In this document: piece after piece, positions 3,645 to 17,452 of the stretch | How positions within the stretch are numbered: position 1 is the first letter of the stretch | Layout of the letters: each line of letters opens with the position of its first letter | Virus record (IMG/VR): IMGVR_UViG_3300010885_082701 | Location: 1-20,652 of that record | DNA length: 20,652 nucleotides | Direction: 5' to 3' (one strand) | From: a virus | Notes under the pieces: model-generated | What the model was told of the DNA's origin: nothing | What the model saw: the letters and a program-made list of their open reading frames with translations, nothing else | Database searches by the model: none | Made by a program: the position numbers and the translations under genes

Positions 3645-4752
<1,108 letters not shown>

Positions 4753-4760
<8 letters not shown>

Positions 4761-5280
4761 GTTTTTTAAGTTTTATTGTGGTAAGATACTTAAACAAGTT
4801 TTCTAGTTTAGTGTTTTCATAGGGATCTTCGTTAGTATCATATTCCTCAGAAAAACGATACTCTATTTTATTATCATTAAAAATAAATAATTCTCGCCTA
4901 CTTCGTAAACCTAATACATTTCGATATATAAGATTATTAAAATTTTTTGCAAATATTAAATCTATATCGCTTATAAACTTTAATTTTTTTATTCTCATTG
5001 CATCAGCCCATACGCGTTGAGTAAAAAAATCATTAGATGTCAAAATATATATTTCTTCTATTCCCAGGTTTTTAATTTCTTGTGCTGCATTTTCAAACTC
5101 AGGTACTTGATTAAATGTGCAAATAGGAGTAAATGCGCCCGGTAACGTTAAAATGATAGTACGCTTTTTAGTAATTTCTTCAAAAGTAGCTGTAAAAGTC
5201 GGATAAACTAGTACCCCATCTTTTAGTTCCTTCTCAAACTCACTAATAAAAAAATATTGCCTCAATATGTCACTATTCAT
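4753..5280 (-). CDS. Peroxiredoxin, Prx5/type II-like
   Basis: This is a 175-residue thioredoxin-fold peroxidase. The active-site loop LPGAFTPICT (residues 46-55) matches the PGAFTPxCS signature of Prx5-type peroxiredoxins, with C54 as the peroxidatic cysteine and T51 in its usual place. It is followed by VPEFENAAQEI, a SNDFFTQRVWADAM block (family form NDPFVxxAW), and LRSRR at about 126-130, which matches the conserved arginine region. C54 is the only cysteine, so it would work as a 1-Cys enzyme reduced by an external thiol. The family reduces H2O2 and organic peroxides. It sits unexpectedly inside the fibre block, between the 2OG oxygenase and a collagen-like fibre gene. A ribosome site (AGGTG) overlaps the stop of the upstream gene. 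It may protect the infected cell or the iron enzyme next to it. Confidence 0.8.
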
Positions 5281-7774: not shown

Positions 7775-8758
7775 TTAAGAAAAATTAATACCGCTTATAA
7801 CACTATAAATTGTAGTGCCGCCATCAAATGTTATAAAAGTAAATAAATCAATAGCATTTAAACTATTTGTTAAAGCAGGTGCGCTGCCCCCTGACCATTT
7901 AAATGCAGACCCCCAGCTTATAGTAAGTGAAGCACCTGTGGTATTTTTTCTTAGTATAGAAAAACCAAAAGCTTTACTGGAGGGTATATTAGATAAAGTA
8001 ATTGATGTAATATTAGCGCCATGATTTAAAAAAATTACATTACCATTGTCTAGATTAATAGAAAGCGCGCCAGAAACAGTTTGATTGATAGTCTGAAAAA
8101 TTTCTTGTGTTTTTGTTACTTCTATAGCATTAAAATTTTGTAAAGCAGTAAATGTGTTAGTTGCATTAGGATTTACTCCTAAGTCGCCTTTGTCACCTTT
8201 AAGGAAGTCCCCTTTCTGACCCTTTATACCGTTAGCATAAAAGAAAGAACCATCACTGCTGCCAAAAGCAAGAGTACTATTAGCGTCTGTGTATGTAACT
8301 GTATATACTTGTTCGCCTTTACTACCTTTATCTCCAATTTCCCCTTTATCGCCTTTGCTGCCAGTGTCGCCTTTTGCTCCTGTGTCTCCTTTGTCGCCCT
8401 TATCGCCTTTTGTGCCTGTATCGCCTTTATTACCTTTTAAACCGGAAGCGTTAAATGTGGAATTGTCGCTATTAACAAAGACTACTGTATTGTTACTATT
8501 GTAGTAAGTTGCACTAGTTAGCTGGCTTCCTTTTTCTCCCTTGTCTCCTTTATCCCCTTTATCTCCGGGCTGGCCTTTATTGCCGTTTGAGCCAGAGGTT
8601 CCTTTTTCTCCAGGCTCCCCTTTAGGAAAATATCCAGGGCCTACGAAATACCCACTACTATTAATAACCGGAATTCCGGAGACTGTTATGTCTCCAGTAA
8701 ATGATGCTGTAGCGTCATTAGAGACAAATTTAGAAAGGGATTTATTTTTACTAGGCAT
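7775..8758 (-). CDS. Collagen-like tail fibre protein B
   Basis: This is a 327-residue paralogue of the protein at 3645-4760. It shares the N-terminal module (SKFVSNDATASFTGD, then VINSSGYFVGPG), Gly-X-Y repeats at about 48-78, 107-155 and 179-195, and both inserts (QLTSATYYNS and [11 protein letters not shown]). Repeat Y positions are again mostly lysine. The C-terminal 130 residues are unrelated in sequence to fibre A, but end in a typical phage fibre-tip motif (FKWSGGSAPALTN, then IDLFTFITFDGGT). It is the first gene after a perfect late promoter (8785-8792). No strong ribosome site lies next to the ATG at 8756-8758; a GAGGT lies about 20 bases upstream. The start is supported by alignment with fibre A. 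Likely the first member of a late fibre operon. Confidence 0.8.
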   Translation of the reverse strand: MPSKNKSLSKFVSNDATASFTGDITVSGIPVINSSGYFVGPGYFPKGEPGEKGTSGSNGNKGQPGDKGDKGDKGEKGSQLTSATYYNSNNTVVFVNSDNSTFNASGLKGNKGDTGTKGDKGDKGDTGAKGDTGSKGDKGEIGDKGSKGEQVYTVTYTDANSTLAFGSSDGSFFYANGIKGQKGDFLKGDKGDLGVNPNATNTFTALQNFNAIEVTKTQEIFQTINQTVSGALSINLDNGNVIFLNHGANITSITLSNIPSSKAFGFSILRKNTTGASLTISWGSAFKWSGGSAPALTNSLNAIDLFTFITFDGGTTIYSVISGINFS

Positions 8759-8793: not shown

Positions 8794-8817
8794 AAAAAAA
8801 GAGCCTTCAGGCCCTTT
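8794..8817 (-). terminator. Intrinsic terminator downstream of pqqA
   Basis: On the minus strand the sequence reads AAAGGGCC, loop TGAA, GGCTCTTT and then more T, so the T-run is 7 long (8794-8800). One G-T wobble lies in the stem. It should stop transcripts coming from pqqA and DUF932 just before the late promoter restarts transcription for the fibre genes. Confidence 0.65.
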
Positions 8818-8857
8818 AATGATAGCCGAGGCGTGCTTTCGCAGAGGCCCCGGGCAT
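8816..8857 (-). other. Structured stretch with a 13-codon open frame after pqqA
   Basis: After the double stop of pqqA the minus strand contains ATG at 8855-8857 followed by 12 more sense codons (MPGASAKARLGYH) and TAA at 8816-8818. No clear ribosome site precedes it, so translation is doubtful. The same bases can fold: TGC-GAAA-GCA makes a GNRA-capped hairpin, flanked by GGGGC and GCCTC that can pair as an outer stem across a small internal loop. It is more GC-rich than its surroundings. It may be an RNA element protecting the short pqqA transcript, or an additional peptide. Confidence 0.3.
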
Positions 8858-8870
8858 ATTGAACTACTTA

Positions 8871-8942
8871 TTAACGCGATGCAATGTACATCGTGACTTC
8901 AAACCCGAAACGCTTGTCTTGAGCAGTTGGCTTTGTCCACAT
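8871..8942 (-). CDS. pqqA: PqqA, precursor peptide of pyrroloquinoline quinone
   Basis: This is a 23-residue peptide that begins MWTKPTAQDK, continues RFGFEVTMYIASR and ends in two consecutive stops (TAATAA). A perfect ribosome site AAGGAG (8949-8954) lies 6 bases before the ATG. Length and pattern match bacterial PqqA residue for residue: MWxKP at the start, D9, R11, G13, then E15-V-T-x-Y19 and a C-terminal Arg. E15 and Y19 are the two side chains that the radical-SAM enzyme PqqE, with chaperone PqqD, crosslinks to build PQQ. PQQ is the periplasmic cofactor of quinoprotein methanol and glucose dehydrogenases. No pqqB-E genes are in the window, so host enzymes would process this peptide. It stands alone between DUF932 and a terminator, with its own possible promoter. 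It was found by eye, being too short for routine gene calling. Confidence 0.88.
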   Translation of the reverse strand: MWTKPTAQDKRFGFEVTMYIASR

Positions 8943-8964
8943 ATTAGTCTCCTTAATAACAATA

Positions 8965-8979
8965 GTAGGGATATCCTAC
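8965..8979 (-). promoter_or_regulatory. Hairpin in the pqqA leader
   Basis: GTAGG (8965-8969) and CCTAC (8975-8979) can pair around a 5-base loop, and the core GGATATCC (8969-8976) is a perfect palindrome. It lies about 10 bases upstream of the pqqA ribosome site, in the untranslated leader. It could be an operator, a leader hairpin or chance; no known riboswitch class is recognised. Confidence 0.3.
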
Positions 8980-8984
8980 CTTAA

Positions 8985-8993
8985 TATTTTATA
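8985..8993 (-). promoter_or_regulatory. Possible -10 element for pqqA
   Basis: The minus strand reads TATAAAATA. This is close to a sigma70 -10 box and to the late octamer TATAAATA with one extra A. No good -35 box lies 16-18 bases upstream. It is about 43 bases before the pqqA start, leaving room for the leader hairpin and ribosome site. Further upstream (about 9003-9020) is a weak AT-rich stem followed by T residues, which might end DUF932 transcription. The pqqA-DUF932 interval 8943-9048 holds nothing else I can recognise. Confidence 0.3.
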
Positions 8994-9048: not shown

Positions 9049-9981
9049 TTAAGCAGCTTCTGCAAACTCAACAGCCTTCTCTAGAGCCTTAATCTTGAGG
9101 GACTTGTTAGGACCAAACCAGGCCGACTGAATACGGGTCTCGTTAGTACGACCAAGCAGGTGATCAGTCATAAACGTAACTGCGTTGAACGGTTGCCACT
9201 AGCTACCTTCGGCAAACTTAGCACCAGGCTGCTTTTCCAAAACATCAAGCGCTTGAACGGCATTACGAGACATCTTACCTTCTTCCTTAGTAAGGCCGGG
9301 GAAGATAGTAGCAAAGTATTCCTTTACCTTATCCTCGTTATAACGCTTGCTACCGAGGAAAGCAGCCATCTCCTTATAGGTCTGAAGCTTATCCTTAGCA
9401 ATACCAAGCATCTCCTTAGCAACATCGCCGTCAAACGTACGACGATGATTCATCTTGTAAGAGTTAGCAGCCTTAGCATCTAGAGCAAGCGTAAGGGTAT
9501 TATTACAAACAACTCGGATAGGGGTAAAACGAATATCGATCGATTGACCGAACTTATGCGGATTAGTAAAGAGCAGATAACCCTTCACTTCATCACCACC
9601 AAACAGCTCAAAGCCGTCCTTGATCTTAGCCAAAGCCCAGACGACTTGACCGTTCTTCAACGAGCCGGCGGTATGCATCTCCATATCACCGCTATGTACA
9701 AACTCATCAAAGAACTCAAAAGCTTCTTGGTTCTGGACAGGATTCCAGTCGGTAGTAACGACGTCGAGAATGCTGTTATCAGACGAGCGAACTAGCGCAT
9801 GACGACCAGTTGCAGTCTTAACACCGTTAAGATCAATAAAAGTAGGAACCTTATCAACGGTCCAGTCTAGATCTGCAGTCTTGAGCATTTGCTCAGGGGA
9901 CAGGTCAGCAGGTACTTCCTTACCCAAACCATGCCAAGGTACTTCGCCAGCATAAGCCATATTCTCAATCAAGTGTGCCAT
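9049..9981 (-). pseudogene. DUF932 (TIGR03299-like) gene interrupted by an in-frame amber codon
   Basis: The first 260 codons (9981-9202) encode a clear DUF932 phage/plasmid-like protein: MAYAGEVPWHGLG near the start, then GRHALVRSS, VVTTDWNPVQNQEAFEF and FTPIRVVCNNTLTLAL. A TAG at 9199-9201 then interrupts the frame. The same frame continues for 49 codons to TAA at 9049-9051, and these encode the expected family C-terminus (WQPFNAVTFMTDH, then TRIQSAWFGPNKSLKIKAL). The whole would be about 310 residues. Other genes in the window end in TAG, so general recoding is unlikely. Remaining choices are programmed readthrough, a host or phage amber suppressor, a point mutation, or a sequencing error. 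The start has an excellent AAAGGAGAT site. The gene is visibly more GC-rich than most of its neighbours. DUF932 has no settled function. Confidence 0.75.
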
Positions 9982-10011
9982 GTCATATCTCCTTTAATTA
10001 ATGACATGTAT

Positions 10012-10040
10012 ATATTAATTTCGTCACGAAATAAAATCAA
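10012..10040 (-). promoter_or_regulatory. Possible promoter with palindromic operator before DUF932
   Basis: On the minus strand TTGATT (10035-10040) and TAATAT (10012-10017) are 17 bases apart, a moderate sigma70-type pair. The spacer holds a perfect inverted repeat, ATTTCGT-C-ACGAAAT (10018-10032). An inverted repeat between -35 and -10 is a typical repressor site. Transcription would start about 25 bases before the DUF932 ATG. The alternative is a weak hairpin overlapping the end of the upstream gene. Confidence 0.4.
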
Positions 10041-10221
10041 CTTCTTTTGTGAGATCATCTATGGCTTCCCAGTGAAGCATGTTAACTATGATGTAGAACG
10101 TTCTCAGATCTTCGTTATCCATATCATCTAGCATATCTGATGATATTTCTGAGATTGGAATTCCGTAGAAGATCTGATTTTGAATCATTTCTTCGAGTTC
10201 TGATGCTCTTCTGTAATCCAT
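10024..10221 (-). CDS. Small acidic protein, unknown
   Basis: This 65-residue protein starts at the ATG at 10219-10221 with a near-perfect AGGAGGTG site upstream. It is acidic and looks mostly helical (RRASELEEMIQNQI, SDMLDDMDNEDLRTFYIIV). No cysteines, membrane segment or known motif. It lies just after the terminator at 10237-10268 and about 40 bases before DUF932, so either readthrough or an unseen promoter serves it. The function is unknown. Confidence 0.65.
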   Translation of the reverse strand: MDYRRASELEEMIQNQIFYGIPISEISSDMLDDMDNEDLRTFYIIVNMLHWEAIDDLTKEVDFIS

Positions 10222-10236
10222 GGCACCTCCTAGAAC

Positions 10237-10268
10237 TAAAAAAGAAAAACGGGCATTGAAGCCCGTTT
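10237..10268 (-). terminator. Intrinsic terminator ending the exonuclease/RNase H gene run
   Basis: A perfect 8-bp stem, AAACGGGC with GCCCGTTT (10247-10254 and 10261-10268), encloses a 6-base loop. On the minus strand it is followed by TTTTTCTTTTTT-like sequence (10236-10249). It lies immediately after the stop of the gene at 10271, which makes it the end of the long transcript coming from the sugar and replication genes. Confidence 0.75.
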
Positions 10269-10270
10269 GC

Positions 10271-10810
10271 TTAAACTGTTAGTGCTCGTTTTGCACTATA
10301 GTAATACCCATAAGCCGACTGCTTCTCAATATTTAACCTTTCTGATATCTCTCGAACAATATCACCTGTCTTTTTATCGATCATACTTGCATAGATTTCT
10401 CTAGCAATAGATGACTTAGACGTGGATACCTCCTTTTCTTCTTGAACACTGATATCTTTGCCTAAAATAGTATTCAACTTTTCTAGACGTTTTTCGGCAA
10501 TGGACAATACTGACTTAGGATCAAAATTTTCACCTTGAGTCGTTGCTTCATCTAGTGCTGTTAATGCGTATACTCTGCTCTTACGCATCTCAGCATTAAA
10601 TTGTACTGGTACACCGAGCTTAAGTAGAATAGCGTTACATGCTCGGACTGGATTACTCTGATTATCAATATATGCTCGAGCTGTCTGAATCATAACAGTC
10701 TTTGACATGGCATTATTGATACCAATCTTGTTAAAAATCTCTTGTGCAGAATTACCTACGCTGCTATAGAGAGCTTCTTTCTTAAATTCTACTTTCTTTT
10801 TGCGTGCCAT
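10271..10810 (-). CDS. Possible HTH-type conserved phage protein
   Basis: This 179-residue protein starts at the ATG at 10808-10810 (MARKKKVEFKKEAL). The open frame reaches back to an ATG at 10858, but that would overlap the exonuclease gene by 77 bases; neither start has a clear ribosome site. The N-terminus is strongly basic. The C-terminal 40 residues (KTGDIVREISERLNIEKQSA, then YGYYYSAKRALTV) have the spacing of a helix-turn-helix, so DNA binding or transcription control is possible. The middle (DEATTQGENFDPKSVLSIAE, then KRLEKLN) is helical. I do not recognise the family. It is the last gene before a strong terminator. Confidence 0.55.
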   Translation of the reverse strand: MARKKKVEFKKEALYSSVGNSAQEIFNKIGINNAMSKTVMIQTARAYIDNQSNPVRACNAILLKLGVPVQFNAEMRKSRVYALTALDEATTQGENFDPKSVLSIAEKRLEKLNTILGKDISVQEEKEVSTSKSSIAREIYASMIDKKTGDIVREISERLNIEKQSAYGYYYSAKRALTV

Positions 10811-11459
10811 TTGTATGATATAATTTAAATAAGTTAATCGTTTCAGATCTATACTCATCCGGAGACTTTATAAAAATCTGCGGGGCATTTTCTTCTTCTA
10901 CTGCAATAACTACTACGATTCGATCGATCTTAAGATCGTACATCTCTTCGACCATCATCGAGTAGGCTGTGGTCTGTAGAAAGTAACCTTCTATCCACTC
11001 GTCCTTCTTAATCTTAGATGACGTCTTATAGTCAACAATACAGATTTTATCATCTATGCGGCCAAGCATATCGCATCTACCGGCTGCTTTTAGTACCTTT
11101 GAATGCAACGGTATTTCTAGATTATATACTGATTGCAGTTTATCGTCAAGAAAATCTTTGATTTGTTTAAACAAGGAAACATTAGCAGGCATAGCTTTGC
11201 TAGTATAGTTCTCTTTGTTATTTACATAATCTTCACATAGCTGATGAACTGCCGTTCCCCGGGTCGTAGCCTGTCTTGTTATCTTTTCTGCAGTTGAAGC
11301 TCCTACTCGTTCTCTCCATTCCGCAATCGATTTGCTCTTATAAGAAGAGAGAACAGTAGTTACTGAGGGATATTCTTCCCCATCTACTAGATAAAATCTT
11401 TTACCATCTTTTTCTATACTAGTAAGTTCTTGAACTGGTAGGGGATTGTGTATGAACAT
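10782..11459 (-). CDS. PD-(D/E)XK exonuclease
   Basis: This 225-residue protein carries the RecB/Cas4/MGME1-type nuclease core. RGTAVHQLCEDY (residues 68-79) contains the motif I His (H72). GRCDMLGRID follows with the metal-binding D130. IVDYKTSS contains the catalytic D143-x-K145, and YFLQTTAYSMM is the QxxxY motif. The N-terminus (EYPSVTTVLSSYK) is typical of phage members of the family. Such enzymes trim DNA ends in recombination or repair. It follows the FmdB-like gene with a 1-base overlap and precedes the HTH-like gene. Confidence 0.8.
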   Translation of the reverse strand: MFIHNPLPVQELTSIEKDGKRFYLVDGEEYPSVTTVLSSYKSKSIAEWRERVGASTAEKITRQATTRGTAVHQLCEDYVNNKENYTSKAMPANVSLFKQIKDFLDDKLQSVYNLEIPLHSKVLKAAGRCDMLGRIDDKICIVDYKTSSKIKKDEWIEGYFLQTTAYSMMVEEMYDLKIDRIVVVIAVEEENAPQIFIKSPDEYRSETINLFKLYHTNGTQKESRI

Positions 11460-11761
11460 TATTTTTTATTAAGGTGCTTTTTAATAACCTGTTCTGTCTT
11501 AACTTGCTTAATAGACTTTTTATTAACATTTCTATTGAGCTCACTATCCGGATGTTTCTCTCCGATTTTAGAGAGAACATCTTTCCAGCCAGAATCATTT
11601 TTAATACCACCGACTCCGCTAACCATACTTGGTATAGTAGAAATATCATGATATCGTATAAGATGGGGGTTTAATTTGACGAACGTATCGTATTCAGAAA
11701 TACTAAGCTTATGTTCTACTATTTCATCATTAGTAGAATCATGAAAAGTATAAAACGGCAT
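11459..11761 (-). CDS. Conserved phage protein, FmdB-like N-terminus
   Basis: This is a 100-residue protein. I chose the ATG at 11759-11761 (MPFYTFHD): it overlaps the stop of the tiny gene before it as TAATG, and the longer frame would need a TTG start. MPFYTFHDSTNDEIVE resembles the start of FmdB-family zinc-ribbon proteins, but the cysteines are absent. The rest (ISEYDTFVKLNPHLIRYHD, WKDVLSKIGEKHPDSEL, SIKQVKTEQVIKKHL) resembles a protein conserved in marine T4-like phages. Its role is not known. Confidence 0.65.
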   Translation of the reverse strand: MPFYTFHDSTNDEIVEHKLSISEYDTFVKLNPHLIRYHDISTIPSMVSGVGGIKNDSGWKDVLSKIGEKHPDSELNRNVNKKSIKQVKTEQVIKKHLNKK

Positions 11762-11871
11762 TACTTGTTTCTCTTTTCGTATTCTCTTCGTTTGCGCCAA
11801 ATGTAATTAGTAAGGGTAACTAATTTTGATTCAAACCAAACAATAAATTTACTACTCCATAGCCATTTCAT
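11761..11871 (-). CDS. 36-residue basic peptide
   Basis: The ATG at 11869-11871 directly follows the stop of the previous small gene, and the TAA at 11761-11763 overlaps the next ATG as TAATG. The peptide has a Trp-rich, moderately hydrophobic first half (MKWLWSSKFIVWFESKLVTL) and a strongly basic end (WRKRREYEKRNK). It could sit at the membrane surface. The tight coupling on both sides is the main evidence that it is translated. No family recognised. Confidence 0.5.
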   Translation of the reverse strand: MKWLWSSKFIVWFESKLVTLTNYIWRKRREYEKRNK

Positions 11872-12045
11872 TTAATAAGTATCATCCAATGTTAGCAGTC
11901 TGTCAATATTCTTTGACTTAAGAATGTTCTCTAGGTTTTTATAATTTTTCTTTTCTTTAGCATTTTTAAATTTTTTAACTTGATGATGAGGTCTATCATT
12001 ATCTTCGTAAACGTAATTATTATGCTTTTTTTGCGACTTGCTCAT
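11872..12045 (-). CDS. 57-residue basic protein, unknown
   Basis: The ATG at 12043-12045 has an AGGAGAG ribosome site 3-9 bases upstream and overlaps the previous gene by 26 bases. The protein is Lys- and Asn-rich (MSKSQKKHNNYVYEDNDRPH at the start, NAKEKKNYKNLENILKSKN in the middle) and ends with the acidic-hydrophobic IDRLLTLDDTY. No motif is known to me. Its position in an unbroken chain of overlapping genes and the good ribosome site support a real gene. Confidence 0.55.
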   Translation of the reverse strand: MSKSQKKHNNYVYEDNDRPHHQVKKFKNAKEKKNYKNLENILKSKNIDRLLTLDDTY

Positions 12046-12469
12046 TGCTCTCCTCTAATGGTAGTAGGTCTGGATATGCTGCTCTAACTATTTTCTCTGT
12101 AATGCCTTTAAAAGGCAACTTTTTATCTTTTACTGCGATTAAAAGTTCTGCATCTCGCTTATCTAGCGATTCGATAAGTTGGATGAAAAGCATTTCTCGT
12201 TTAAATTTGCTGAGATTAGGATTTCCACCCTCAACAAACAAATAGAGTTTTCTGGTCTCAGAATATAGTCTGCCTTCTAGATCTAGGTATTCACTAGGCT
12301 TGTAAGGGGGTGAACCTTCGGGAAGAAGAAAAATTATTTTAGGATCAAAAACACATTTAAGAATAGTTCTTAAAATAGGATTATCATTGCTTTGAAGAAA
12401 TCTTACTTTTTCTTCTATAGTCTTAAGATCACAACACGACTTAATAATCTCAGCAATACATTTTTTCAT
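12020..12469 (-). CDS. Conserved T4-like phage protein next to RNase H
   Basis: This 149-residue protein is coupled to RNase H by TAATG, with GGTGA as ribosome site. Features reminiscent of a family conserved in marine T4-like phages (DUF6433-like) are KTIEEKVRFLQSNDNPILRT, FDPKIIFLLPEGSPPYKP, LYLFVEGGNPNLSKFKREML and LIAVKDKKLPFKGITEKIV. It is probably a helical cytosolic protein. No catalytic motif is evident. Its constant position beside replication nucleases suggests a role in DNA replication or repair, which is inference only. Confidence 0.65.
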   Translation of the reverse strand: MKKCIAEIIKSCCDLKTIEEKVRFLQSNDNPILRTILKCVFDPKIIFLLPEGSPPYKPSEYLDLEGRLYSETRKLYLFVEGGNPNLSKFKREMLFIQLIESLDKRDAELLIAVKDKKLPFKGITEKIVRAAYPDLLPLEESNEQVAKKA

Positions 12470-13323
12470 TAAAATTCACCGATATGTTCTATTTGTTGTT
12501 TGAGCTTCTTACTAACAAGAAAATCTAAAAGCTTATCTTTATTCTTGTTACTTTCCTTATCATATTCGTCGTGCACGCATGCTTGAATATGTTCTGGTAC
12601 AAATGTGAGATCAATAAGTTGTTCGTTACGAATCCAATTTTTTAAGAGGTCGCCGGTAAGTTCCTTACGCGGATTATTCATACCCTCAAAGCGTTCAAGC
12701 CTCACGGGTTTCTGTCTAATATTATTTACTAGGCTATCGTCTGGAGATAGAATATTAGGAATACCATCACCACGATCGCCCTTAATAATAAGCTCTTTAG
12801 TAAACTTCACTGGGTCGTTGTTTTTAATTGGTTTTTTTCTAATAGGATCAAATTGACTAACATTACCAAATACTTGAAGTTGAACAAAATCTTTATCACC
12901 TGAGAGAATTAATATCGGCTCACCAGTATTTAGCATATGCCCGTGTTTTAGTACTAGAGTACCAATTACATCATCTGCTTCAGCACCTTTTACTTGAATA
13001 ACTCTATAAGGAAAGTATTCCTTGAGTTCCTGCTTAATAGCAGATAAAGTATTAAAAATGAATGACCAGTCTAGTTCTGATTCATCTCTAGTCTTCTTAC
13101 GATTAGCTTTGTAGTATGGAAATATATCCTTTCTCCATACTTTTTTATCATCACAACAGATTACAAGCTCACCATATTCTTCTGTGAACTTATTTTTTAA
13201 GGATCTAATGGTATTGAGAACCATATGCCTTAGTAGATTTTCATCTACCTTAACATTTGTATAATTACCAAGCTGTGCCATCAAATTAGCAATGCACACC
13301 TGGTTAAGGTCAAGTAAAATCAT
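12469..13323 (-). CDS. rnh: RNase H / 5'-3' exonuclease (T4 type)
   Basis: This 284-residue protein is of the FEN-1/T4 RNase H family, which removes RNA primers and adjacent DNA from lagging-strand fragments. Acidic metal ligands are in place: D5 (MILLDLNQ), D58-D59 (ICCDDKKVWRKDIFPYYKAN), E115/D117/D118 (KGAEADDVIG), D143/D145 (LILSGDKDFVQL) and D183/D186 (KGDRGDGIPNI). The length is close to the 305 residues of the T4 enzyme. TAATG overlaps join it to the GmhA-like gene upstream and the conserved gene downstream. Confidence 0.88.
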   Translation of the reverse strand: MILLDLNQVCIANLMAQLGNYTNVKVDENLLRHMVLNTIRSLKNKFTEEYGELVICCDDKKVWRKDIFPYYKANRKKTRDESELDWSFIFNTLSAIKQELKEYFPYRVIQVKGAEADDVIGTLVLKHGHMLNTGEPILILSGDKDFVQLQVFGNVSQFDPIRKKPIKNNDPVKFTKELIIKGDRGDGIPNILSPDDSLVNNIRQKPVRLERFEGMNNPRKELTGDLLKNWIRNEQLIDLTFVPEHIQACVHDEYDKESNKNKDKLLDFLVSKKLKQQIEHIGEF

Positions 13324-13910
13324 TACAGTTTAATAGTATCTTTATCTTTGTTTGTAATTCTAATATGCTGCGCTATTACGTGCATTATTGCTTGATGTGC
13401 GTCTTCTACGATACCGTAGTTACTAACAGGTACATGAAGAACTATATCTGCCAGATCTTTAGCTTCACCGCCGTCAAAGCCTACCAGCGCAATAGTCTTC
13501 ATATTACTAGCTTTGGCCGTGCGCAATGCATTTAATATATTTGATGAGTTGCCGCTAGATGATATCACTACAAGAACATCGCCCGGGTCTGCAAACATAT
13601 CGAGTTGATAGCTAAAAACACTATCATAAGATATATCATTACCAATCGCGGTAAGCAAAGACGTGTTGGATGGCAATGATACTATCTTAGGAAAAAATTT
13701 AGTATCGTTATAGATACCTTTGCTATGGTCGCAAAGGAAATGATCGCTTATAGCAGCTGAGCCACCATTGCCGCAAACAAAAATAGTGCCTTTTGCTAGC
13801 ATGGTAATTATTAGTAATGTTGCAGCTCTATCTAGAGCAAGAGGATCAACACTGCGTAGACCGTTGGCTAGGTCTTGAGCATAGCTTTGAAGCCTATCAT
13901 CAATTTGCAT
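13323..13910 (-). CDS. gmhA: Phosphoheptose isomerase-like SIS protein
   Basis: This 195-residue protein has one SIS domain. The phosphate-binding segments are CGNGGSAAISDH (46-57) and SSSGNSSN (117-124). EDAHQAIMHVIAQHI (169-183) matches the C-terminal E-x-x-H helix of GmhA, which converts sedoheptulose 7-phosphate to heptose 7-phosphate. The segment after GNGGSAA (FLCDHSKG) differs from the usual HFAAEL, so substrate choice could differ. It overlaps the GHMP kinase gene by 11 bases. The pairing of isomerase and kinase is the first two steps of nucleotide-activated heptose synthesis. Confidence 0.75.
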   Translation of the reverse strand: MQIDDRLQSYAQDLANGLRSVDPLALDRAATLLIITMLAKGTIFVCGNGGSAAISDHFLCDHSKGIYNDTKFFPKIVSLPSNTSLLTAIGNDISYDSVFSYQLDMFADPGDVLVVISSSGNSSNILNALRTAKASNMKTIALVGFDGGEAKDLADIVLHVPVSNYGIVEDAHQAIMHVIAQHIRITNKDKDTIKL

Positions 13911-14877
13911 AAACTACTCTACTTCCATCATTGTCAAAATTAAAATCAAAATGTTTAAGGCCTATTCTCTTGGCCTTTTCTAGTACCTTCTTTTTACTTA
14001 TGTCATCCGGAACATAGAATAAAAAGTAACCTCCACCACCAGCACCTAATATTTTACCACCTAATGCACCAGCTTTCTTAATATCACTGTAATAGTCATC
14101 TAGCTGCCCGCTGCTGATACCGCTTGCAAGTGAACGTTTAATATTCCACGAATAGTCTAGCATATCACCAAAATCATCTAACTTACCTGTTCTTATAGAT
14201 TTATAAGCGTCGTGAGCAAGCTTAACTAGTTCTCTTACTTCGTGATTTTTATCATTAGCAGATTGTTCTTGCAGAATATTAGCAGCACTTCTTGTAATAC
14301 CAGTATAGAATAACATTAAATTGCTTTTAAGTCTAGTAATAGTACTACTACTAGCTGGTACCGGGCTAACATCTACAACACCATCAGTATTAAAGGTAAA
14401 TAAATTAAGACCACCGAACGCAGCTGCATATTGGTCTTGTTTACCTATCGGATCTTTACACCAGTTAATTTCAATATCACATGCAGCTTCAGCTAGATCA
14501 AATCTGCTAGGAGTGGGCAAGTCCTGGTATCTGTAAATTGCATCTATAAGCCCAACCGTAAAGGCAGATGATGAACCTAATCCAGTACCTTTGGTAGGAA
14601 TCTCAGAAAAAGATGCAATTTCTATATTCTTTGCAATACTAAATGCCTTAAGCACATTTTTAATTCTATCGTGCTTTAATTCTTCTACATCCTCAGTAAC
14701 TTCTATTGAGTTGTAGATAGCTTTGACACCGTTAAGTGAAGTCTTACAAACAGTAATGTACATATACTTGTTAATCGTTGTTGACAAGCATGCACCTGGT
14801 TGCCTTTCGTAAAAGGACGATATATCGCTACCGCCTCCAAAAAAACTTACTCTTAACGGTGTCTTAGCTAAAATCAT
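13900..14877 (-). CDS. hddA: GHMP kinase, heptose-7-phosphate kinase-like
   Basis: This 325-residue GHMP-superfamily kinase begins AKTPLRVSFFGGGSD. The ATP-binding loop KGTGLGSSSAFTVG spans 96-109, a catalytic stretch is DPIGKQDQYAAAFGG (142-156), and the C-terminal motif is LGAGGGGYFLFY (277-288). This pattern fits HddA, which phosphorylates D-glycero-D-manno-heptose 7-phosphate at C1; related fucose or galactose kinases are alternatives. The GmhA-like gene immediately downstream supports the heptose reading. ATGA overlap with the glycosyltransferase gene. Confidence 0.75.
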   Translation of the reverse strand: MILAKTPLRVSFFGGGSDISSFYERQPGACLSTTINKYMYITVCKTSLNGVKAIYNSIEVTEDVEELKHDRIKNVLKAFSIAKNIEIASFSEIPTKGTGLGSSSAFTVGLIDAIYRYQDLPTPSRFDLAEAACDIEINWCKDPIGKQDQYAAAFGGLNLFTFNTDGVVDVSPVPASSSTITRLKSNLMLFYTGITRSAANILQEQSANDKNHEVRELVKLAHDAYKSIRTGKLDDFGDMLDYSWNIKRSLASGISSGQLDDYYSDIKKAGALGGKILGAGGGGYFLFYVPDDISKKKVLEKAKRIGLKHFDFNFDNDGSRVVYAN

Positions 14878-15872
14878 ACAGTATTATAAACGAACATAGG
14901 ACCGGCATTCTTAATCTTGCGGCTTTCTTCAGTTGGGTACTGTGCCTTAAGAGATGCCATTAGATCTTGCCACTGACTTGTAATCTTAGTCCAATTGAAT
15001 CTGCTATCTGCATACGTCTTTGTAAGCTTAAGATAGTCTTGAATCTGTTCTGTATTTACAATATCAATAGCGTTCTTAAGTGCGAAGTAGAAAGTACCTG
15101 CATGCTCTTGAACGTCGTCTGAACCTTGATACATGAAATTAAGCCCACCAGAAGTATCAATCAAACCGCCTCGGTTAGGATGCACGCAAAGTAGGCCGGC
15201 CGACATTGCTTCAATAAGCGACCGGCTATTGCATTCAGTCCAGATTGAAGGATACGCAAAAATATGTGCCTTTTGTAGAGCAGCTCGCACATCATCATTA
15301 GAGGCGTACGAATGATAATTGATCTTTGGATGTGCGCGCATGCGTTCATACAAAGGCTCGAACTGCTTGTCAGCATCATCCCAGCCATAGATCTTAAAGC
15401 TAGAATATACGTCAAGCACGATATTATCGTATTCCTCTGCAAGCTTTTCAAAGACTGGTACAAGTAGTCCTAGCCCGCGCTGAGGTGTAGATGTGTAGAT
15501 AAGACGAATCTCATCTTTACTCTTCTCTACAAAAGGAATTGGATCGATTGCCGTTTCGATAATAGTCGAGTGCGTATCGTATGGAACACCTAGCATGTGC
15601 TGATATCGGTAGTATTGCCACTGACCGCAGAAGACTAGCTTGTGAAACCGTCCGCGGCTAATCTCATCCTTAAGGTGATTAGTCTCTGGATCTTCTGGTA
15701 AGTCATGAAGCCAATAGATCCGAATCTTATCATCTTCTAGGTCTCTTACTCTGGAGCAAATAACCTGAAATTCATCCGCAGCATCCGGTGGAAGTCTTTC
15801 TGCAAGACCTCGTTTCATCATTTCAGTACCGCCCTGCGAATTCTTCGATACTTCATTTTCCTCAAAAGCCAT
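14874..15872 (-). CDS. GT4-type glycosyltransferase
   Basis: This 332-residue GT-B fold protein has the C-terminal nucleotide-sugar domain clear: IYTSTPQRGLGLLVPVFEKL (125-144), then YPSIWTECNSRSLIEAMSAG with the EX7E pair E213 and E221. The N-terminal domain is short and begins with a QGGTEMM motif usual at the acceptor side of GT4 enzymes. It probably transfers the sugar made by the neighbouring enzymes to host lipopolysaccharide, a virion protein or DNA; the acceptor is not visible. It overlaps the epimerase gene by 11 bases. Confidence 0.75.
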   Translation of the reverse strand: MAFEENEVSKNSQGGTEMMKRGLAERLPPDAADEFQVICSRVRDLEDDKIRIYWLHDLPEDPETNHLKDEISRGRFHKLVFCGQWQYYRYQHMLGVPYDTHSTIIETAIDPIPFVEKSKDEIRLIYTSTPQRGLGLLVPVFEKLAEEYDNIVLDVYSSFKIYGWDDADKQFEPLYERMRAHPKINYHSYASNDDVRAALQKAHIFAYPSIWTECNSRSLIEAMSAGLLCVHPNRGGLIDTSGGLNFMYQGSDDVQEHAGTFYFALKNAIDIVNTEQIQDYLKLTKTYADSRFNWTKITSQWQDLMASLKAQYPTEESRKIKNAGPMFVYNTV

Positions 15873-16848
15873 TTTTGTCTTCCCTATAACAATAAAACTC
15901 CCAACTGGAGCTAATAATAGATTCTATATTACCTTGATATTGAAAGCCAGTATCATTAATAAACTTATCAGGATTAGCAACTAGAAACCCTGGATCCCCT
16001 GGTCTCCTAGGGGCTAACGCATATGCAAGGTCAATTTTAACTACATCTTCAAACTTAGTAATAAGCTCGTTTAATGTTGTGCCTTGCTTTGTACCTAGAT
16101 TAAAAATATGCGCGCCAGGGTTGCTATTTAAGTATTCAATAGCAGTAAAATGTGCGCGGCACACATCATTAACATCAAGATAATCTCGTACTGCTGTACC
16201 ATCTTTAGTCTCATAGTCCGAACCATAAAGGCTAAATGGTTTGCCGCTATAAGCTGATTTACACAAAATCGGTATAATGTGAGAGGTATCAATACGGTCG
16301 CCTAGATCTTTATTAGCACCAGCAACATTAAAATATCTAAAGGTAACCGACGGTATCTTATAAAAACTAAAAAGTTTTTGTATAAGTTTTTCACACATCA
16401 GCTTAGATTTGCCATATTCATTAGGCGAACCCTTAGGACTATTTTCTAGAACGGGTTTTGAGATCTCTTTATAAACTGCAGCTGTACTAGAAAAAACTAT
16501 TTTACCGTTTCTTTCTACCCACCCTGATTGAGTAAGGTTATGCAGCATTCGTGCAGTATTGCCGACATTATTGTAATAGAACAAAAAGGGCATCTCTTGA
16601 CTTAGCTTAACATCAGCGGATGCGGCTAAGTGAAATACAGTAGAAATGTTTAGTTCTTTACAGGCTTCTGCAAATTTAATATCAGATATGCAGCAGTCGA
16701 GAACTCGATCCACATAAGCGGGCTGATCTAGATTTGTATATTCATGGTCTACACCTAAAACACTATAGCCAAGCATTTTGCAATGCTTGGCTAGTATATC
16801 GCCGATATAACCCTTACTTCCTGTTATTGCTATCCAATGATGATCCAT
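15862..16848 (-). CDS. NAD-dependent sugar epimerase, GalE-like
   Basis: This 328-residue extended SDR protein has the NAD-binding GSKGYIG (10-16), HLAASADV, FSSTAAVY (119-126) and the catalytic Y145-x3-K149 (YGKSK). FRYFNVAGA, GTAVRDYLDVNDVCRAH and RRPGDP are typical of UDP-glucose 4-epimerase (GalE). GalE interconverts UDP-glucose and UDP-galactose. Within a heptose module it might act on another nucleotide sugar. It starts inside the last codons of the nucleotidyltransferase gene (35-base overlap) with only a weak ribosome site. Confidence 0.75.
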   Translation of the reverse strand: MDHHWIAITGSKGYIGDILAKHCKMLGYSVLGVDHEYTNLDQPAYVDRVLDCCISDIKFAEACKELNISTVFHLAASADVKLSQEMPFLFYYNNVGNTARMLHNLTQSGWVERNGKIVFSSTAAVYKEISKPVLENSPKGSPNEYGKSKLMCEKLIQKLFSFYKIPSVTFRYFNVAGANKDLGDRIDTSHIIPILCKSAYSGKPFSLYGSDYETKDGTAVRDYLDVNDVCRAHFTAIEYLNSNPGAHIFNLGTKQGTTLNELITKFEDVVKIDLAYALAPRRPGDPGFLVANPDKFINDTGFQYQGNIESIISSSWEFYCYREDKNGF

Positions 16849-17452
16849 AATTATAGCTGCAACTCATATCTGTGTTTATTAGACTTGCTGGTTGTGCACC
16901 GTACATTGAGCCAATGTCCCCGCCACCACTACCGATTGTAATAGTATCTACTCCTGCAGCACCTACAATTACGTCAGAGCTCATAGAGCTGAGACTTACT
17001 GAAAATGGATCACTTGGCTGTTGAGTATTTAAATTATACCTGTTAGTAACACGCGACCTCAGTTCCGTTGAACTGAACCTGTGCTGGCGCTTGTTGTAGA
17101 AAATTTCTATGTCGCGCTTTTGACACATTTCTCTGCCAGAAAGATCCTTATCCTTATACTCTTCCCCTACAATACGAATATTAATAGGGAGGAAGCTAAG
17201 AAGATCTTCTAGATCCTTCTCAGTAACATAAGGGATAATTTCATCTACGTACTTTACTGCTTGAAGTTGAATATACCTCTCAACTAGAGTTTGTACTGGC
17301 TTATTTTTCCATGACCGATCTGCTGAAGGATCTACTTGAAGACCTACAATCAAGTAATCACATACATCCTTTGCCTGCCTTAACATATCGATATGACCGG
17401 CATGCAACAAATCAAAAGTCGAGCAGGTAAAGCCTACTTTTTGACCATACAT
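16814..17452 (-). CDS. Nucleotidyltransferase (cytidylyltransferase-like) with a C-terminal extension
   Basis: This is a 212-residue protein. Residues 5-135 form a TagD/HldE-C-type nucleotidyltransferase: GFTCSTFDLLHAGHI with the H17-x-G-H20 motif, RSWKNKPVQTLVERYIQL, and the closing FSSTELRSRV (126-135). Members activate glycerol 3-phosphate (CDP), ethanolamine phosphate or heptose 1-phosphate. In this module activation of heptose 1-phosphate is the best fit, but the nucleotide used cannot be read from sequence. The family usually ends near residue 135. Here about 70 further residues follow, rich in Ser and Gly (VIVGAAGVDTITIGSGGG, then YGAQPASLINTD), with no known match. First gene of the sugar module. 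Confidence 0.7.
   Translation of the reverse strand: MYGQKVGFTCSTFDLLHAGHIDMLRQAKDVCDYLIVGLQVDPSADRSWKNKPVQTLVERYIQLQAVKYVDEIIPYVTEKDLEDLLSFLPINIRIVGEEYKDKDLSGREMCQKRDIEIFYNKRQHRFSSTELRSRVTNRYNLNTQQPSDPFSVSLSSMSSDVIVGAAGVDTITIGSGGGDIGSMYGAQPASLINTDMSCSYNYGSSLDSNNRK

Follow-up and report, generated by a model that had tools for sequence, protein, structure and literature searches.

Background

Cyanophage psbA and similar auxiliary genes supply a short-lived or consumed part of the host energy system. Methylophilaceae (OM43, Methylopumilus) are important methanol consumers of coasts and lakes. PqqA, the peptide substrate of PQQ synthesis, has already been reported in one phage population from Lake Baikal, VP_266, a metagenomic population that also carries a viral methanol dehydrogenase (Coutinho et al. 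2020, PMC7678222); the isolate P19250A was said there to encode none of these genes. On the bacterial side, Methylophilaceae carry 3–12 copies of pqqA against a single pqqBCDE (PMC4109929), the host copies vary in expression (PMC9851590), and PqqE crosslinks a Glu and a Tyr of PqqD-bound PqqA (PMC10906245).

The phage studied here resembles VP_266 in its T4-like character, a GC content of about 35%, a predicted Methylophilaceae host, PqqA as auxiliary metabolic gene, and the same proposed role. It differs in that the window (the whole stretch of DNA analysed, a virus record of 20,652 bases) and its 145.7 kb relative are without a dehydrogenase. Furthermore, VP_266 is one metagenomic population, whereas pqqA was found here across unlike cultured methylophages. 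With the PqqA of Methylophilaceae hosts, the window and other phage peptides share the length, the MWTKP start, the RFGFEVTMY core, and E15 and Y19, and some phage and host peptides are identical; the window peptide differs from host PqqA by QDK at positions 8–10, and no pqqBCDE genes lie beside the window gene. Like psbA in cyanophages, phage pqqA would add a used-up part of the host energy system, but PqqA is a peptide substrate and neither an enzyme nor a reaction-centre protein. The original prediction was unsure whether such a gene had been described before; phage PqqA itself was known, from one report (PMC7678222). New here are its presence in nine isolate records and in unlike lineages, the lack of annotation, and a correction of the published statement on P19250A, which does carry pqqA (at 28085–28153).

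Identification of the pqqA gene

The pqqA open reading frame lies on the minus strand (8942..8871; ATG at 8942–8940, TAA at 8873–8871) and its translation is MWTKPTAQDKRFGFEVTMYIASR, i.e., 23 codons plus stop. The original prediction had the coordinates right but left the strand unstated; the frame read on the plus strand at 8871–8942 is meaningless and does not encode the peptide. Identity as PqqA, which had been proposed from the letters alone, was confirmed by profile comparison, the window peptide being a genuine family member by its scores against both PF08042 (34.5 bits, E 2e-8; curated cut-off 21.1) and the equivalog model TIGR02107 (32.7 bits, E 4.7e-8; cut-off 20). The profile search covered the whole record, over which the match reached an E-value of 4e-9, and the same search in 14 control genomes gave no match; chance was thus excluded as the source of the match. 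The predicted crosslink pair was likewise found, E15 and Y19 forming a Glu-x3-Tyr pair near the C-terminus of the 23 residues with the spacing of PqqA, and the proposed ribosome site is in place ahead of the start codon (Table 1).

Table 1. Coordinates of pqqA and of the features surrounding it in the window
Feature	Position	Strand	Remarks
Collagen-like protein, downstream neighbour of pqqA	7775..8758	-	GXY-type repeats in translation; probably a tail fibre
Intrinsic terminator, stem followed by T run	8798..8817	-	Between pqqA and the probable tail-fibre gene
GC-rich hairpin directly 3' of pqqA	8826..8853	-	Kept in three relatives
pqqA	8871..8942	-	ORF; PF08042 34.5 bits; TIGR02107 32.7 bits
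Ribosome site AAGGAG	8949..8954	-	6 nt 5' of ATG, read from sequence
Leader hairpin GTAGG-ATATC-CCTAC	8965..8979	-	Arms invariant, loop variable in 4 relatives
Possible -10 element TATAAAAT	8986..8993	-	By-eye comparison; TAAAATA kept in relatives
DUF932-type gene (phrog_1221), upstream neighbour of pqqA	9049..9981	-	Broken by TAG at 9199-9201

Conserved hairpins flank pqqA at the same places in three relatives (L280, L281, and L293). The hairpin in the leader is confined to the phage family of the window. The GC-rich hairpin behind the gene is preceded in the relatives by a TATAAT-like box and followed by the terminator, and it could perhaps represent a separate small RNA. A search of Rfam for known RNA elements near pqqA returned no family at its cut-off. 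A sigma-70 scan upstream of the window pqqA found no full promoter; the candidate -10 element was proposed from the alignment by eye.

Phage context of the locus

Matches to PHROG families among the window proteins include an RNase H/exonuclease, a RuvC-like resolvase, the small subunit of ribonucleotide reductase, a nuclease, and baseplate-wedge-like proteins; the neighbours of pqqA are T4-type phage genes, as predicted. Nucleotide matches link the DUF932 gene of the window to Methylophilales phage Melnitz (70%) and its RNase H gene to T4-like cyanophages. Relatives of the locus were retrieved with the DUF932 gene as query. In four T4-like contigs (L280, L281, L283, and L293), pqqA occupies the same position after this gene, approximately 680 bases beyond its matched part, and less closely so in L302. 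In two of these contigs, L281 (145.7 kb) and L293 (84 kb), there are also genes homologous to those for gp32, gp59, RNase H, and the gp5 hub of Melnitz. The gene thus stands in a genuine phage genome and is kept in its relatives, which fits a phage auxiliary metabolic gene.

The DUF932 gene of the window is interrupted where TGG has become TAG (9199–9201, minus strand). This stop is a point mutation or a sequencing error and not stop-codon recoding, because the nearly identical contig L279 (99.98% identity) has TGG.

Distribution among cultured and environmental phages

The window peptide was searched with tblastn against 50,697 phage records, a collection in which the OM43 phages MEP431–434 did not show up near their genus type and in which unmatched methylophage records may have escaped notice, and 12 records matched. 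Nine of these are methylophage isolate records (Melnitz, four records; Venkman; MEP301; MEP401; MEP402; P19250A), and the others are ctXG6705, a phage from spring water, and a pair of contigs named as an Acinetobacter phage. The latter two were rejected as phage, since they are bacterial DNA in which pqqA has pqqB, C, D, and E next to it: both CAKLQF020000010.1 and CAKLQH020000055.1 go under the name Acinetobacter phage MD-2021a, and the stretch read in the former is bacterial. Mislabelled records of this kind can mislead surveys of phage genes. Each of seven phage records tested contained exactly one match above the PF08042 cut-off. The gene is annotated as PqqA in none of the phage records; its site is unannotated in Venkman, MEP301, MEP401, MEP402, and P19250A, and carries a “hypothetical protein” on the opposite strand in Melnitz and ctXG6705. 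The papers on methylophage isolates that were searched (PMC9004378, PMC8163748, PMC10580990, PMC8024684) do not mention PqqA as a phage gene.

A pattern scan of IMG/VR yielded more than 120 contigs with pqqA, which is a lower bound. Among 120 contigs listed, 89 could be linked through common proteins to one of seven reference phage groups (Melnitz 22, Venkman 21, ctXG6705 20, MEP301 9, MEP402 6, the family of the window 6, P19250A 5). Several of these groups are mutually unlike, which suggests that the gene has spread between lineages. Other PqqA types are almost missing from IMG/VR: the Pseudomonas-type pattern gave 0 contigs and the alphaproteobacterial pattern 2 contigs, both from one data set. 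The expectation that a gene too short for normal gene calling would be widespread and unannotated was hence borne out by isolates and environmental contigs alike. It is also rather probable that methylophages carry pqqA almost universally as a host-specific auxiliary gene, comparable to psbA in cyanophages. Mutually unlike Methylophilaceae phages, small as well as large tailed ones from several lineages, would each have acquired or exchanged these 72 bases, which would have been overlooked in the genomes of cultured methylophages for being too short for gene callers.

Profiles of PqqE and PqqD gave no match above cut-off in the phage records tested. A methanol dehydrogenase model gave none in 71 phage records, most of which are fragments, and methanol dehydrogenase was rejected as partner of pqqA in the family of the window. 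In a separate scan, a XoxF-type methanol dehydrogenase turned up on five virus contigs, three of which also carry pqqA. On one of them (L417, contig G153), the phage methanol dehydrogenase at 173–1641 is followed about 200 nt behind by a pqqA with its own ribosome site; the encoded peptide, MWTTPAATEMRFGFEITAYIMNR, keeps E15 and Y19. On another (L404, contig G151), the stretch at 10001–14795 holds a gene for a xoxF-type methanol dehydrogenase and, immediately behind it, one for a molybdopterin alpha subunit of 946 residues resembling formate dehydrogenase. The same contig has pqqA at 41887–41943 as well as curli-like genes and those for DnaK and GroEL. A single phage may here combine two steps of methanol oxidation, the viral nature of the contig resting on IMG/VR and on phage-type replication genes.

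Conservation of the coding sequence

Among the distinct phage pqqA loci listed, 132 of 135 have a Shine-Dalgarno-like site, compared to 11% in shuffled upstream sequence. A second pattern scan, in which codons 15 and 19 were left free, gave at least 138 matches representing 111 distinct sequences. E15 and Y19 were invariant across all 111 listed, although the pattern constrained neither position, and the Tyr19 codon was TAC in 57 and TAT in 54. Within the family of the window, the four pqqA variants differ pairwise by 3–10 synonymous and 0–2 non-synonymous changes. Over all phage copies, the pooled pN/pS was 0.17 and the median dN/dS 0.08, values that are biased low as the search patterns fixed many residues. 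Judged by these substitutions, phage pqqA is under purifying selection.

Host assignment and host pqq genes

Among the matches listed, the bacterial genomes with this PqqA type belong to Methylophilaceae, Methylophaga, and a few other proteobacteria, and are largely methylotrophs. All 30 methylotroph-type genomes tested carry pqqA (1–12 copies). Likewise, each of the 38 genomes most closely related to a Methylopumilus genome has 1–10 copies, and most others sampled have none. Of 30 genomes with this PqqA type, 28 have a PqqE that scores above cut-off, and PqqD was found in all three such genomes tested. The predicted host of the window phage is a methylotroph, most likely of the Methylophilaceae. 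A host without pqqB–E, named in the original prediction as an argument against a PQQ function, is not suggested by the pqqE of bacteria with this PqqA type. Of the two enzymes that had been proposed to benefit, methanol dehydrogenase fits, whereas glucose dehydrogenase is unlikely, this PqqA type occurring mostly in methylotrophs. Phages and hosts have the same peptide as their commonest one. The window variant with QDK was absent from the host peptides found, the nearest of which is identical at 19 of 23 positions.

Proposed role and alternative explanations

We consider that phage PqqA feeds the PQQ synthesis of the host, with a probability of roughly 0.75. The phage would make additional PqqA peptide in the infected cell, which host PqqD and PqqE would bind, joining Glu15 to Tyr19 by a crosslink, and PQQ would be completed by proteases, PqqB, and PqqC of the host. 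The cofactor would then load the methanol dehydrogenase of the host or, in a few phages, one encoded by the phage, so that methanol oxidation, the energy source of the host, would be kept running until lysis. The phage would supply only the consumed part and leave the reusable enzymes to the host. As one molecule of PqqA is consumed per PQQ, a small gene could raise or sustain the cofactor once host transcription falls. Multiple host copies of pqqA beside a single pqqBCDE suggest that peptide supply matters and is a likely bottleneck; the phages that pair pqqA with methanol dehydrogenase also point to a gain in PQQ. We infer that the gene is expressed, that its product is processed by the host, and that PQQ and phage yield increase. 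Since the hosts already possess several pqqA copies, an extra one may have little effect if its expression is not strong.

Alternative explanations were weighed against this supply of substrate. An assembly chimera or host contamination, for which only the bacterial origin of the PqqA family counts, has a negligible probability: in the relatives L280, L281, L283, and L293, pqqA likewise follows the DUF932 gene at this position, which rules out a chimera with bacterial DNA as envisaged in the original prediction, and complete isolate genomes carry the gene. Alternatively, the peptide could be a decoy that occupies PqqD and PqqE, lowers or diverts PQQ, and shuts down methanol oxidation of the host. 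An over-supply of substrate could saturate the chaperone, and the differing expression of host pqqA copies (PMC9851590) would be compatible with this, both being weak arguments. A decoy would, however, be expected to lose its reactive residues in some lineages, whereas none of 111 distinct genes departs from E15 and Y19, and some phages carry pqqA together with methanol dehydrogenase; we regard this explanation as improbable.

We also see little likelihood that host pqq or xox genes are regulated by the peptide or its RNA, in place of a role as substrate. The leader and downstream hairpins conserved in the family of the window would suit such regulation, but the leader hairpin occurs only in this family, whereas the peptide is common to many lineages and its crosslink residues do not vary. 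Very improbable, finally, is a neutral passenger repeatedly acquired from pqqA-rich hosts at no benefit to the phage. The identity of the commonest phage and host peptides makes exchange likely; the gene is nevertheless intact and preceded by a ribosome site in many phages that are unlike one another, which argues against neutrality, as does the QDK variant, which is missing from the host peptides found and is kept in relatives of the window while silent sites vary.

Implications for methylotroph infection and annotation

Provided that nearly all Methylophilaceae phages carry pqqA, infection may keep up or raise PQQ and hence methanol turnover, and PqqA supply becomes a bottleneck that can be tested in cultured phage–host pairs. 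A near-universal presence of the gene in methylophages would suggest that this supply limits methanol-fuelled phage production. Genes of 23 codons fall into a blind spot of annotation, and published surveys of auxiliary genes in methylophages are incomplete, including one statement of absence. pqqA could also serve as a simple sequence marker for viral contigs that infect methylotrophs.

Further genes of the window and its relatives

Two related collagen-like proteins with GXY repeats are encoded in the window (3645–4760 and 7775–8758); their N-terminal parts are very similar, and both are probably tail fibres. A peroxiredoxin-like protein (phrog_2281) is located amid these genes at 4753–5280. 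The stretch at 13323–17452 forms a nucleotide-sugar block with a cytidylyltransferase-like protein, an epimerase, a glycosyltransferase-like protein, a GHMP kinase, and a SIS-domain-like protein, perhaps for heptose or a surface sugar. PqqE is an iron-sulphur enzyme. In a close relative of the window (L282), the DUF932 gene is followed at approximately 11000–12381 not by pqqA but by IscU-like and ErpA/IscA-like iron-sulphur assembly genes.
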